NCBI RefSeq assembly: GCF_000522985.1
Contig: NZ_CP007128.1
Span: 744,001-808,000 of the forward strand
Direction of reading: 5' to 3'
DNA from: Gemmatirosa kalamazoonensis
Lineage (GTDB): Bacteria; Gemmatimonadota; Gemmatimonadetes; Gemmatimonadales; Gemmatimonadaceae
DNA: 64,000 nt
The position numbers and the translations under genes were made by a program. Under the pieces are notes generated by a model. The model did no database searches, had not been told where the DNA came from, and saw only the letters and a list, made by a program, of their open reading frames with translations. Shown one piece after another: positions 45,808-58,968 of the stretch (positions are counted from its first letter, which is position 1; each line of letters opens with the position of its first letter).

Positions 45808-45824
45808 ACGGGGGAACTTAGCGG

Positions 45825-45955
45825 TCTCACGCGGAGGCGCGGAGGGCGCGGAGGATTCCCTTCTTTGCAGCGACCACTGGGGATCCAGCGGCGATGGAAC
45901 GGATCTCGAGATCGCTTCCATCGCCGCTGGATCCCCAGTGGTCCTTGCAAAGAAA
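45825..45955. repeat. Half TCACGCGGAGG element followed by GGGGATCCA palindrome
   Basis: 45825-45860 is a solitary left arm of the CGCGGAG family. 45861-45955 is a 95-base palindrome: CTTCTTTGCA, CCACTGGGGATCCAGCGGCG and GATGGAACGGATC are mirrored about CTCGAG. It lies between two leftward genes. Confidence 0.88.
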
Positions 45956-45962
45956 GCGGTCC

Positions 45963-47774
45963 TCACCGGGAGCACATCGGCATCGTCGGATCCGCCCCCG
46001 AGATGGCCGGCCGGTCGCGGCGGTCGGCGATGGCGAGCATCACGTCGTGGATGAAGCGGCCCACCTTCGCCGCGTGGTCGTAGTCGATGTACCGCGGCTC
46101 GTCGGTCACCTGATGGTAGTCCTGCGCGTAGCCTAACGAGAAGTACGTCACCGGCACGTCGTGGTTGACGTAGTTCACCTGGTCGCTGCGGCAGAAGCGG
46201 TTCAGCGGGTTCGCCGGCACCTCCCAGCTGCGGTCGATCGCCATCGGCTCCGCGCGCACCGCGTTCACCGAGTCGATGATGTCGCCGAACTCGCGCGACA
46301 GGCGGCGCGCGCCGAGCATCTGCAGCGAGTTCGGGCCGCCGAACTTCACCTGCTCCACGCGCCCCTTCCCCACCATGTCCATGTTGTGCGCGGCGACGAC
46401 CTGCGCGAGCGGCACGGTGGGATGATCGGTGAAGTACTTCGAGCCGAGCAGCCCGCCCTCCTCGCCGTTGTGCGACACGAAGACGATGGAGCGCGCCGGC
46501 CGCTCGGTCGCGAACCGCTCCGCGATCTCGAGCAGCACCACCGTGCCCGAGCCGTCGTCGTCGGCGCCGTTGTTGATGGAGTCGCGCCGCGCCGGTCGGA
46601 TCCTCCGCGCGCGCGCGATGAGCGAGTCGATGCGCCGCTGCTGCTCCATGGTCGGGCGGCACACCGGATCGTTCTGCCCCTGCCGGCGCGTCACGGTGTT
46701 CACCGCGCGCAGCGAGTCGTGGTCGACGGCGAAGTCGTTCACGCCGACGTGGTCGTTGTGGGCGCTCACGAGCACGTACTCGCCCGCGCGCGCTGGATCG
46801 GTGCCCGGGAGCACGGCGATCACGTTGCGCGCCGGCGTCGGCGAGATCTTCCACGCGTAGCTCCAGCTCCCCGATACCGGCTTGCCCGCCGTGCCGACCG
46901 TTAGGCCGTCGAGCGGCCGGTCGAACAGCCGCGCCGCCGCCGCGCGCGAGATCGACGCGCTCGGCACGGCGCCCGTTCCGGGCTCGGGGCGCATCACCAT
47001 GCGGTCCGCGAACGCGCCGCGCACGGTGGCGCGCGACGTCGCGTCGAGGTTCACGAGCAGCACCGCCGCCGCGCCGGCCGCCTGCGCGCGCCGGTCGCGC
47101 GACGGCGTCGTGCGCGCGAACCGCCCGACGCCGCGCCGCGCCTCGCCGACTTCGGCGTCGATCGCGGCCTGCGCGCCGAACTTGTCGACCACCGAGTCGC
47201 AGCGGAGCGTCGGCGACGCCGCCGGGCGCTCGGTGCTGCCGGCGAGGAACACGGCGACCTTGCCGCGCACGAGCGCGGGATCGAGCGCCGTCGTGTCGCC
47301 CCACCGGCCCGCGAACACGGTGGGCACGTCGGTGAGGCTGGCCGAGAGCGCGGCACCGTTCGCCGACGTCGGCACCGTCGGGATCCAGTCGGTGCGCGGC
47401 GCGAGCGGCGCGCCGCCCGCCTCGAGCCGCGATGCCGCGACGTCGAAGCCGCCCGGCCCGAACGGCAGCACCTGGAAGTACGTCCCGCCCTCCCCCGCTG
47501 GCTTCAGGCCGAGCCGCGCGAACTCGCGCGCGATGTACTCGGTCCCCTTGTAGTTCCCCGGCTCGCCGATGCGGCGGCCGAGCATGGAGTCGTCGGCGAA
47601 CTGATAGAGGCGGGTGCGGAGATCGTTCGCCGAGATGTCGGGGGACGTGGAGCGGCGCGTCCACGTGCTCGGTCCCTCGTCGGGCCACACGGGCTTTGTG
47701 GCGCGCGGTTGGGCGGCGAGCGGGGCGGCGACCGTGAGCGTGGCGGCGAGCGTCAGTATGTCGATGCGTGACAC
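45963..47774 (-). CDS. Exported M28-family zinc aminopeptidase
   Basis: The start is placed at GTG 47774, giving a signal LTLAATLTVAAPLAAQP and 603 residues. A PA-type insert precedes the M28 catalytic domain. Zinc ligands are visible in order: His in VSAHNDHVGVND, Asp in NNGADDDGSGTVVLLE, catalytic Glu pair in SHNGEEGGLLGS, Asp in HNMDMVGKG and the final His in DYHQVTDEPRY (about residue 570). Ligand spacing matches M28 aminopeptidases. The enzyme probably degrades peptides in the periplasm or outside. No inhibitor or partner gene is adjacent. It is divergent from the DAACS transporter. Confidence 0.93.
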   Translation of the reverse strand: MSRIDILTLAATLTVAAPLAAQPRATKPVWPDEGPSTWTRRSTSPDISANDLRTRLYQFADDSMLGRRIGEPGNYKGTEYIAREFARLGLKPAGEGGTYFQVLPFGPGGFDVAASRLEAGGAPLAPRTDWIPTVPTSANGAALSASLTDVPTVFAGRWGDTTALDPALVRGKVAVFLAGSTERPAASPTLRCDSVVDKFGAQAAIDAEVGEARRGVGRFARTTPSRDRRAQAAGAAAVLLVNLDATSRATVRGAFADRMVMRPEPGTGAVPSASISRAAAARLFDRPLDGLTVGTAGKPVSGSWSYAWKISPTPARNVIAVLPGTDPARAGEYVLVSAHNDHVGVNDFAVDHDSLRAVNTVTRRQGQNDPVCRPTMEQQRRIDSLIARARRIRPARRDSINNGADDDGSGTVVLLEIAERFATERPARSIVFVSHNGEEGGLLGSKYFTDHPTVPLAQVVAAHNMDMVGKGRVEQVKFGGPNSLQMLGARRLSREFGDIIDSVNAVRAEPMAIDRSWEVPANPLNRFCRSDQVNYVNHDVPVTYFSLGYAQDYHQVTDEPRYIDYDHAAKVGRFIHDVMLAIADRRDRPAISGADPTMPMCSR

Positions 47775-55608: not shown

Positions 55609-56070
55609 ATGCTCGACATCAAGCCCTGCCTCTGGTTCCAGTCCCAGGCCGAGGACGCCGCGAGCTTCTACGTCTCCGTCTTCCCGAACTCCCGCGTCGG
55701 CTCGGTGATGCGCGGCGCCCCGGACGCCCCGCCGATCGCGGTGGAGCTCGTGATCGACGGCAAACCGGTCCTCGCCCTGAACGGTCGGCCTCAGAACGGC
55801 TTCACCGACGCCAGCTCGTTCGTCGTCACCTGCGAGACGCAGGCGGACATCGACCGGTACTGGGACGCCCTCACCCGCGACGGCGGCGCCGAGGGGAGGT
55901 GCGGCTGGCTCACCGACCGGTACGGGGTCTCCTGGCAGATCGTCCCCCGTGCCCTCGGCTCCCTCCTCGGCGGCTCCGACCCCGCCGCGTCCGGCAGGGC
56001 GATGCAGGCGATGCTCGGCATGGGCAAGCTCGACATCGCGGCGCTGGAGCGGGCCCGGGCGACGGCCTAG
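55609..56070 (+). CDS. VOC-family protein (PhnB/3-demethylubiquinone methyltransferase-like domain)
   Basis: The 153-residue product has IKPCLWFQSQAEDAASFYVS (about residues 4-23), VFPNSRVGSVMRGAPDAPP (about 24-42), VELVIDGKPVLALNGRPQ and the second half with DIDRYWDALTRDGGAEGRCG (about 80-99) and LTDRYGVSWQIVPRAL (about 101-116). This is the standard PhnB-like vicinal-oxygen-chelate fold. Such proteins are common near ECF and YCII genes in other genomes. No catalytic function is assigned. GAGG lies upstream of the ATG at suitable spacing. Confidence 0.92.
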   Translation: MLDIKPCLWFQSQAEDAASFYVSVFPNSRVGSVMRGAPDAPPIAVELVIDGKPVLALNGRPQNGFTDASSFVVTCETQADIDRYWDALTRDGGAEGRCGWLTDRYGVSWQIVPRALGSLLGGSDPAASGRAMQAMLGMGKLDIAALERARATA

Positions 56071-56071
56071 C

Positions 56072-56327
56072 CGTCTCACGCGGAGCGCGGCGCCTTTCGT
56101 GGGGCACGGCTCCTCGCATGGAGACGCGGATGGCGCGGATGACGCGGATTCGCGCGGAGAACACCGACACATTCTTGGTAGCTCTCCGCGTGATCCGCGT
56201 CATCCGCGAGATCCGCGTCTCCCCTTCGACGAGCCGTGCCCGGCGCACTCGACGTGCCCGGTGCGACGAAGCCGGACCCCAGGTCCGTGCCGTTCGCCGA
56301 GCCCTCGGCGTCTCCGTGTGAGAGACG
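56072..56327. repeat. Triple-nested intergenic palindrome, GCGGATGACGCGGAT inner
   Basis: Three levels are visible: GTCTCACGCGGAG against CTCCGTGTGAGAGAC (outermost), GGGCACGGCTC against GAGCCGTGCCC (perfect, 56102 and 56231), and inner arms of ACGCGGATGGCGCGGATG units against CATCCGCGAGATCCGCGTC (56121-56221). It fills most of the gap before the permease; 56328-56511 shows no further feature apart from the gene leader. Confidence 0.85.
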
Positions 56328-56511: not shown

Positions 56512-58968
56512 ATGCTCCTCCACGACCTCCGCTACGCGGCCCGCTCCCTGACGCGCGCCCGGGGTTTCACCCTCGCCGTCGTCCTCACGCTCGGACTCGG
56601 CATCGGTGCCAACACCGCCATCTTCAGCGTCGTGCGCGGCGTGCTCCTGAAGCCGCTGCCGCACCGGGACGGCGACCGCCTGATCTACCTGCGGCAGTCC
56701 ATCAAGGGACCCGGGGGCGAGAACATCGCGTTCTCGGTTCCCGAGATCAACGACTTCCGCCAGGGCGCGAAGTCGCTCCAGGGGGTGGCCGAGTACTCGC
56801 CGCTCACGCTGACCATGCTGCGCGCCGACGGCACCGACCCGGTGCGGATCAACGTCGGCCTCGTGACCGGCAACTTCTTCCAGGTCATGGGGCTGCACAC
56901 GATTCTCGGCCGGCAGACGAACGACGCCGACGACGGCCCGAAGCCACCCCCGGTGATGGTGCTGACCTACGACTACTGGAAGTCGCACTTCGGCGGCGAC
57001 CCGAAGGTGATCGGCCAGGTGGTGCGCGTGGAGGGGAAGCCGGCGACGATCGTCGGCGTGGCGCAGCCGGCGCCGTTCTTCCCCGGCCGCTACGACGCGC
57101 TCATGAACATGGTGATCAGCGAGCACCACGTGAGCGCGACGATGGTGCAGGGCCGCTCGCACCGCATGACCGAGATGATCGCGCGGCTCGCGCCCGGCGT
57201 GTCGGTCGAGCAGGCGCGCACCGAGGTGGCGACGATCCGCCGGCGGGTGCAGGCGCAGTTCGTCCAGGACTACGACCCGGGCTCGGGCTACAAGGTGGAC
57301 GTGCTGCCGTTCCGCGAGGTGCTCGGCGAGAAGGCGCGCCTCACGCTCGGGCTGCTCATGGCGGCGGCGGTGTTCGTCATGATCATCTCGTGCGCGAACG
57401 TCACGAACCTCACGCTGATGCGCGGCGTCCGGCGCGAGCACGAGCTCGTGGTGCGCGCCGCGGTCGGTGCCGGCACCGCGCCGCTCCGCCGCCTCATGCT
57501 CGCCGAGAACCTGCTGCTCGCCAGCGCCGGTGCGCTGCTGGGCCTCGTGCTCGCGTTCGGCGGCGTCGGCCTGCTCACGAGCTTCGCCGAGCGCTACTCG
57601 CCGCGCGCCGACGAGATCCGCATCGACGGCATGGTGCTCGGCTTCACCGTCGCCGTGACGTTGGGCGTCGCGCTGCTGCTGTCGTACGCGCCGCGGCTGC
57701 CGAAGGAGGGCACGCTCGGCGGGTGGGTCGCCGCCGGCGTGTCGCGCGTCAGCGGCAGCCTGCGCAAGCAGCGCATGCAGCGCTCGCTCGTCGTCGCGCA
57801 GATCGCGGTGTCCGTCGTGCTGCTCGCCGGCGCGGGGCTGCTCACGCGCACGATGATGCGCCTCGCGAGCGTCGACGACGGCTTGAAGCGCGGCGAGGTG
57901 CTGACGATGGAGGTGCCGCTCATCATGGGCGAGCGCAGCGACGCCGACTCGCGCGCGCTGTATCAGCGCATCAGCGACGAGGTGCAGGGACTTCCCGGCG
58001 TGCAGGCCGTGGGCGTGGGCTCGACGATGCCGCTCCGCTCCACGCAGTTCCAACTCGACGTGAAGGCCGAGGGGCGCGCGCTCGCCGCCGGCGAGGCGCA
58101 GCCGCACGCCGAGCTCCGCTCCGCCGACCCGGGCTACTTCCGCGCGGCGGGGATCCCGCTGGTCGCCGGCCGCGACTTCGTGGCGACGGACCGCGACAGC
58201 GCGGCGCGCGTCGTCGTGGTGAACAAGACGCTGGCCGAGAAGTTCTGGCCCGGCCGCGACCCGATCGGGCAGCGCGTCGCGTGGACGGGACCGGTGCTGC
58301 AGTTCATCGGCATGAAGGAGGACCAGTGGATGACGGTGGTCGGCGTGGTGGCCGACACGCGTGACGGTGGTCTCGACGCCGAGCCGCGCAACGTCGTCTT
58401 CCAGCCGTTCGCGCAGACGCCGGTCTTTCAGGGCGGCGGCCTCGTGGTGCGCACCGGCAGCGTCGCGGCGAACCTCGCGCCCAACGTGATGCGCGTCGTC
58501 CGCGCCGTCGCGCCGCGCGAGCCGATCGAGCACGTGCTCACTGTCGGGCAGATCCGCGAGGAGAGCGTCGCGCCGCGGCGGCTCAACGCGGCGCTCGTGT
58601 CGTCGTTCGGCATCCTCGCCGTCATCATCGCGGCGGTCGGCATCGCGGGCGTGCTCGCGTTCTCGGTGAGCGCGCGCACCACGGAGATCGGCATCCGCAT
58701 GAGCCTCGGCGCCACGCGCTCCGCGGTGCATCGCATGGTGCTCGGCGAGGGCGGCGTGCTGCTCGTCGTCGGCCTCGTGCTCGGCGTCGTCGGCGCGCTC
58801 GTCGTCACGCGGCTGATGGCGGGGCTGCTGTTCGGCGTGTCGCCGTACGATCCGGTGACGCTCTCCGTCGTCGCGGTGGTGATGGCCGCGGTCGGTGTCG
58901 CGGCGTGCTGGCTGCCGGCGCGGCGCGCCGCGGCGATCCATCCGACGATCGCGATCCGGGGGCGATGA
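56512..58968 (+). CDS. Orphan ABC-type permease, ADOP-like (MacB/FtsX domains)
   Basis: The start is ATG at 56512 (MLLHDLRYAARSLTRARGF); the frame is open far upstream through the palindrome, but that part is not coding-like. The 818-residue product has a first helix (FTLAVVLTLGLGIGANTAIF), a MacB-like periplasmic domain, an FtsX unit with RGVRREHELVVRAAVGAGT (about residues 304-322), a short cytoplasmic linker, a second periplasmic domain and a C-terminal FtsX unit with ARTTEIGIRMSLGATRSA (about 719-736). No ATPase or PadR is adjacent. It is the third such permease in the window and differs from the other two in the N-terminus. Confidence 0.93.
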   Translation: MLLHDLRYAARSLTRARGFTLAVVLTLGLGIGANTAIFSVVRGVLLKPLPHRDGDRLIYLRQSIKGPGGENIAFSVPEINDFRQGAKSLQGVAEYSPLTLTMLRADGTDPVRINVGLVTGNFFQVMGLHTILGRQTNDADDGPKPPPVMVLTYDYWKSHFGGDPKVIGQVVRVEGKPATIVGVAQPAPFFPGRYDALMNMVISEHHVSATMVQGRSHRMTEMIARLAPGVSVEQARTEVATIRRRVQAQFVQDYDPGSGYKVDVLPFREVLGEKARLTLGLLMAAAVFVMIISCANVTNLTLMRGVRREHELVVRAAVGAGTAPLRRLMLAENLLLASAGALLGLVLAFGGVGLLTSFAERYSPRADEIRIDGMVLGFTVAVTLGVALLLSYAPRLPKEGTLGGWVAAGVSRVSGSLRKQRMQRSLVVAQIAVSVVLLAGAGLLTRTMMRLASVDDGLKRGEVLTMEVPLIMGERSDADSRALYQRISDEVQGLPGVQAVGVGSTMPLRSTQFQLDVKAEGRALAAGEAQPHAELRSADPGYFRAAGIPLVAGRDFVATDRDSAARVVVVNKTLAEKFWPGRDPIGQRVAWTGPVLQFIGMKEDQWMTVVGVVADTRDGGLDAEPRNVVFQPFAQTPVFQGGGLVVRTGSVAANLAPNVMRVVRAVAPREPIEHVLTVGQIREESVAPRRLNAALVSSFGILAVIIAAVGIAGVLAFSVSARTTEIGIRMSLGATRSAVHRMVLGEGGVLLVVGLVLGVVGALVVTRLMAGLLFGVSPYDPVTLSVVAVVMAAVGVAACWLPARRAAAIHPTIAIRGR

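Follow-up and report, generated by a model that had tools for sequence, protein, structure and literature searches.

A nested palindrome behind a VOC-family gene of Gemmatirosa kalamazoonensis is probably a composite of two repeat elements

The 64,000-nt stretch analysed here (the window) lies on the largest contig of the 4-contig, 7.48-Mb genome of Gemmatirosa kalamazoonensis. A gap of 441 nt between the stop codon of a VOC/3-dmu-9_3-mt family gene and the start of a MacB/FtsX-type permease gene on the same strand holds a nested palindrome (Table 1). Permeases of this type are abundant in the genome, with 119 matches to the N-terminal 163 residues. An earlier note on this DNA described three concentric pairs of arms in the gap, and all three are present. 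The outer pair joins GTCTCACGCGGAG (56073-56085) to CTCCGTGTGAGAGAC (56312-56326) with one mismatch and a 2-nt bulge, and in the middle pair GGGCACGGCTC (56102-56112) has its exact complement at 56231-56241. The outer left 13-mer occurs in four copies in the window, all on the + strand. The arms are indeed nested, but they are unevenly spaced, with about 11 nt between the middle arm and the outer arm on the left and about 42 nt on the right. A fourth, innermost layer had been overlooked: a tip at 56151-56192 that resembles the outer arms, which we assign below to repeat family A. Its two halves pair with RNA pair probabilities of at least 0.85 save for one base, and the right half has 15 nt in common with the tip of an A hairpin at L133:9957-10034. 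In an alignment of 28 arms of the element formed by the middle and inner layers (MAFFT, by eye), the basal box of the right arm had no visible left-side counterpart at this site.

Table 1. Genes and palindrome arms at the locus, in window coordinates.
Feature	Position	Strand	Basis or remark
VOC/3-dmu-9_3-mt family gene	55609-56070	+	Pfam PF06983, E 8.1e-37; ORF; stop codon 56068-56070
Outer left arm, truncated A-family arm (GTCTCACGCGGAG...)	56073-56090	+	A profile, family match; two bases past VOC stop
Middle left arm, basal N part of ND (GGGCACGGCTCCTCG)	56102-56116	+	Pairs with 56227-56241 at 14/15; N motif recurs beside D arrays
Inner left arm, D array of 9-nt words	56120-56149	+	28/30 complementary to 56193-56222
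Innermost left arm, A-like tip (CGCGCGGAGAACA)	56151-56163	+	Pairing with 56176-56192
Innermost right arm, A-like tip (TGGTAGCTCTCCGCGTG)	56176-56192	+	A profile match 56211-56174, minus strand, E 0.011
Inner right arm, D array complement	56193-56222	+	28/30 complementary to 56120-56149
Middle right arm, N part of ND	56227-56241	+	14/15 pairs with 56102-56116
Outer basal box of ND right arm (TTCGTCGCACCG; compare TTCGTCGCGCCG in other ND arms)	56259-56270	-	MAFFT, 28 ND arms, by eye
Outer right arm, near-complete A-family arm including half-tip (GAACGGCA)	56284-56323	-	A profile 56327-56288, E 0.057 in 864 kb
MacB/FtsX-type permease gene, downstream	56512-58968	+	Pfam PF12704, PF02687

All three layers, the outer one included, are paired in both the RNA fold (-181.7 kcal/mol, z -10.8) and the DNA fold (z -9.2) of the site. 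The outer left arm has pair probabilities of 0.94-1.0 in the RNA model and 0.71-1.0 in the DNA model, the last base excepted (56086: 0.01 as DNA). Values are near 1 over the middle arms and over most of the length of the inner ones, whose two mismatched bases are unpaired. When the middle and inner stems are chained, the hairpin scores 35, against 21.5 for the best of the shuffles (one Markov-2 shuffle per locus for the first 41 loci); these two layers are far above chance. The outer pairing is not significant by complementarity alone, being equalled in 473 of 5000 shuffles and at 719 of 4938 places used as controls within the window. Because the pairing by itself is not above chance, its support has to come from the identity of each arm as a member of the A family (TCACGCGGAG). 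The alignment of the right outer arm to a known A arm spans 40 columns, half-tip included, and is equalled by none of 1384 controls; that of the left outer arm spans about 23 columns and is equalled by two of the same controls, all of which were drawn away from the 16 known repeat sites of the window. A profile built from 35 A arms of other loci and scanned against 864 kb gave a short, weak match on the left arm (56066-56085, plus strand, E 0.77).

Elsewhere in the genome, the middle-arm motif (ACGGCTCCTCG) is repeatedly found together with the inner array (CGCGGAT). By a loose pattern, 10 of the 16 places with a D array have the middle motif beside the array, on one flank or both. When 14 of these elements were aligned, leaving out the one-armed places L135 and L136, the motif was by eye clear in 11, weak in two (L123:9549 and L137) and hardly visible in one (L119). 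All 14 sites are intergenic according to our home-made gene calls. Since the middle and inner arms mostly co-occur, we read them as one element, ND, which makes two insertions unnecessary. Three independent layers had been proposed; the joint recurrence argues against this count, and the situation that the earlier note had named as speaking against itself, layers that always occur together, largely describes the middle and inner ones. What survives of its proposal of repeated insertion into a hairpin tip is that one palindromic element lies within a different, older-looking one; 'more than once' does not hold at this site. The arms had also been assigned to different families, which is only partly right: the outer, inner and tip words have one 9-nt scaffold in common (CGCGGAG or CGCGGAT plus two bases).

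A scan with the A profile of 150 nt around each of the 14 ND sites revealed two-sided A arms here only, so that ND lies inside A at one of 14 sites; a further site, L123:9549, has a weak one-sided A-like match (9.8 bits) far outside the element. As matches to the A profile lie both outside and inside ND, the order of layers follows as A > ND > A-like tip. Judged by these family matches, the best reading of the locus would be an A hairpin that surrounds ND, which in turn surrounds an A-like tip; part of the left A arm would be missing.

The site belongs to a large population of hairpins. With a stem-chaining script and a score cut-off of 23, we detected 118 strong hairpins in 864 kb (about 137 per Mb) made up of the window and samples not chosen for repeats; adding 400 kb taken for their repeat matches brought the number of distinct hairpins to 182, with spans of 63-395 nt (median 98). 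Among chromosome samples, density is 188-250 per Mb at 0.74-1.98 Mb, 100 at 3.0-3.16 Mb and 38 at 4.0-4.08 Mb. It thus drops along the chromosome (C2) from 250 to 38 per Mb, and the samples from C3 and C4 have 12.5 per Mb each. The arms often consist of repeated 7-12-nt words that fall into many families: A (CGCGGAG), B (CGCAGAGG), C (CACAGAGG), D (CGCGGAT), E (GACTGAAG), F (CCACGTACG), G (AGGGCAGG), H (CGGGACT), J (ACAGGATGA), K (CTGGGGAT) and others. Perhaps a separate element is GGGGGCTCCCCCCCTTCGCCC, which, or its complement, occurs at nine places, at some of them central in inverted repeats of the CGGCGGGACG type (L123:12768, L139:5465, L140:6800, L140:8667, L140:17452, L143:1273, L145:8505, L197:9033 and L200:9037).

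Hairpin positions are strongly biased. Tests used the home-made gene calls, made by codon score, and were run on the 118 hairpins less 27 that overlap calls and one that could not be placed; 56 lie in co-directional gaps, 28 in convergent and 6 in divergent gaps. Relative to the gaps of at least 20 nt available, hairpins occupy 28 of 75 convergent, 56 of 275 co-directional and 6 of 110 divergent ones (convergent versus divergent, Fisher p 5e-8). Within co-directional gaps the hairpins stand a median of 13.5 nt past the upstream stop and 35.5 nt before the next start, and 50 of the 56, with one tie, are closer to the upstream stop; 54 start within 40 nt past that stop and 31 end within 40 nt before the next start. 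Most likely, the hairpins are tolerated or kept mainly behind stop codons.

Nesting is common in this population. Family profiles matched 93 of the 182 hairpins, of which 35 are nested (two or more families along an arm), 57 contain a single family and one is mixed, with A on one arm and B on the other; the profiles of A, B and C have a common scaffold and training members from the same loci, so these family calls are not fully independent. The nesting orders are A>B, A>C, A>K, B>C, B>K, N>D, A>N>D and F>E, N being under-called because its profile derives from three sequences, and no reversed order occurs among the 35 nested hairpins. Elsewhere in the genome, inner units sit in differing outer hairpins, and outer hairpins also occur empty. 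By eye, some B hairpins are empty, such as L198:698-775 with its GACTGC...GCAGTC tip, and others hold C or K (L195:16584, L197:16055 and L130:13996 for K); K also lies inside A at L148:16596, L195:5610 and, one-sided, at window position 45824, and L130:5834 has A outside B outside K. The K hairpin at 45824-45964 of the window has a left A arm and no evident right A arm, and is another one-sided remnant of an outer layer. In the apices of the window, L119-L158 and L195-L214, the motif ACCAAC/GTTGGT is found 31 times in 7.5 kb of tips, 4.1 per kb compared with 0.11 per kb overall (36 times denser), and it is present in 28 of 78 hairpins of families A, B, C, E and J and in none of the 104 others.

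If pairing is selected in the transcript, G-U mismatches are expected to outnumber A-C mismatches. On the transcribed strand of the 87 co-directional hairpins among the 182, G-U mismatches number 54 and A-C mismatches 61 (p 0.58), with 72 of other kinds. A T-run after the stem was not found: the T fraction is 0.16 in the 12 nt downstream, and TTTT follows 1.1% of the 87 hairpins. Given neither a G-U excess nor a T-run, roles as intrinsic terminators or under strong RNA-level selection are unsupported; a weaker RNA-level role is possible. The hairpins lack the T-run directly past the stem that defines a Rho-independent terminator, and Rfam gave nothing at gathering score, with seven sub-threshold matches.

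The Y1/RAYT domain PF01797 had no match in the genome itself, compared with matches in 5 of 14 control genomes and in 14 of 59 family genomes. No hairpin with a score of 17 or above was detected at six of the family's Y1 loci (1.8-3.4 kb). Neither of the tags sought at the palindrome base is enriched: GTAG is found at 3 of 182 hairpins versus 41 of 2467 background places, and CGTC at 18 of 182 versus 354 of 2467. Membership of the GTAG or CGTC superfamily of REP elements was rejected, as the tags are unenriched, the genome gave no Y1 match and spans are 63-395 nt, not 20-40 bp. By eye, no target-site duplication, one of the marks of a MITE, was noticed in the hairpin flanks.

The sets searched contained no genome of the same genus, and among the relatives in them we found no orthologous gap, empty site or intermediate. 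A permease match lies within about 3.4 kb of the VOC gene at one of 29 loci in relatives, and at none of 80 VOC loci, out of 546, from a contig collection; in relative G015 the best VOC and best permease matches are on different contigs. None of 32 VOC loci of relatives has a strong hairpin. An exact D-hairpin pattern matched, among 59 family genomes, its own locus only, and a 26-nt AGAGG-type pattern, which is too narrow, matched 3 of 200 genomes of the phylum, one of them the own genome with a single match. When six candidates were scored per genome, words related to the site were found in at least 20 of 118 family genomes and words related to a B+C composite in at least 24 of 118, the own genome included in both counts. 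Un-nested C-type hairpins are present in five other family genomes (L259-L263), two of them above the cut-off. Five relatives have hairpin loads of 13, 5, 3, 1 and 0 per 80 kb, with differing words. G015, from another genus, has a similar hairpin load (L175-L178) with the words GGATGCTCCGGAT and GATAACGACGGATGGCTCC, several of its hairpins adjoining GGCGCGCCGGACC. A plasmid collection, from which records near the own genome are possibly absent, held no match for the site or the B+C composite. In a literature search covering open sources and few subscription journals, we recognised no account of these hairpin families, and the retrieved part of PMC12306157 has no mention of Gemmati, RAYT or nested.

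We consider the site to be probably a composite in which two repeat elements of the same genome are combined, ND lying within a hairpin of the A family. The outer arms would then be the two halves of an A hairpin that formerly stood just past the VOC stop codon, and ND, its middle arms and inner array together, would have come to lie in the apex of A, presumably as the younger of the two. Part of the left A arm would subsequently have gone missing, and the apex of ND would carry the A-like tip. Both elements belong to the large set of long REP-like repeats, which most likely spread as DNA-level, non-autonomous elements, by a putative mobiliser, or by hairpin-to-hairpin copying; template switching from arm to arm plausibly keeps the arms matched. 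The fixed order of nesting may reflect composites that spread as units or an exchange of apices between similar stems.

Several other histories are to be weighed against this composite, and our confidence in them overlaps with that in the composite because an RNA role and an exchange of apices are each compatible with parts of it. The hairpins might be selected as RNA, as terminators or 3'-end stabilisers of the upstream mRNA, with the layers merely lengthening the stem. The proximity to upstream stops, tempered by the number of hairpins that also end close to the next start, the avoidance of divergent gaps and the very stable folds all fit this idea, but the mismatch counts and the near absence of TTTT (about 1 of 87) do not, and the five relatives have either differing words or few or no strong hairpins; we regard it as possible, if doubtful. 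Somewhat less credible to us is that tips are swapped by homologous recombination or template switching between hairpins with common 9-nt words, leaving conversion tracts and involving no insertion. Such an exchange would account for outer, inner and tip words on one scaffold and for the same tip motif on different stems, as well as for the A-like tip inside ND here, and template switching is reported to create and fix perfect stems (PMC8794818). It fits less well with K units in A and B hairpins, which by eye have no evident homology of arm words at their ends, and, with copies of ND and A scattered over many places whose flanks differ, a spreading step would still be needed.

The outermost pairing could also be chance, with an ordinary ND element beside unrelated A-like scraps, given how often shuffles pair as well and how uneven the spacing is on the two sides. 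We judge this improbable, as each outer arm is independently A-like, in the right order and orientation, folding keeps the two paired, and no other of the 14 ND sites is alike. That each pair of arms arrived by an insertion of its own, as first proposed from three pairs with different words, is very improbable and largely refuted by the occurrence of middle and inner arms together at most D-array sites.

The elements have points in common with several known systems. REP and BIME sequences are high-copy intergenic palindromes behind or between co-directional or convergent genes, with several families per genome, of which a few are reported to be inserted within other palindromes (PMC3733652, section 7). 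The hairpins described here are likewise intergenic, lie behind co-directional and convergent genes and form several families in one genome, but they are longer than the 20-40 bp of REP elements, their arms often consist of repeated 7-12-nt words, they have neither GTAG nor CGTC enrichment, and the genome gave no Y1 match (PMC3733652). Intergenic stem-loop families (SLS) favour the 3' side of genes, with convergent gaps enriched and divergent gaps depleted (PMC1590033); our hairpins show the same preference for gaps and 3' sides (PMC1590033, section 9), but differ from SLS as described in their layered nesting in fixed order (PMC1590033). The palindromic GC clusters of yeast mitochondria are mobile-like, and merge and shuffle into larger palindromes (PMC4478555). 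The present palindromes similarly appear mobile-like and merge into larger ones, whereas GC clusters are mitochondrial, measure 42 nt for the best studied and are flanked by short direct repeats, none of which were noticed here (PMC4478555). Template-switch mutation is reported to create and fix perfect stems (PMC8794818), and is comparable in making and repairing perfectly matched arms; unlike the repeats, it does not by itself spread copies (PMC8794818). By this comparison, the elements appear to work like REP-type or GC-cluster-type repeats while falling, on the features tested, outside the tagged REP superfamilies.

We place the locus in a modular and apparently lineage-specific collection of long palindromic repeats. 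Its appearance is that of known repeat hairpins in an unusual, modular form, not that of novel machinery. More speculatively, and in our view rather unlikely, the set could constitute a hairpin-on-hairpin system in which apices serve as landing sites, layers are added in one-way order (A>B>C or K; A>ND), an apical ACCAAC is common to several families and composites spread further, all without a Y1 transposase. Cases of palindromes within palindromes are already on record for a few REP families (PMC3733652, section 7). The sampled part of this genome provides 35 nested cases beside empty or differently filled outer hairpins, their fixed order and a tip motif common to several families. This nested set makes the spread of palindromic repeats without a known transposase testable.
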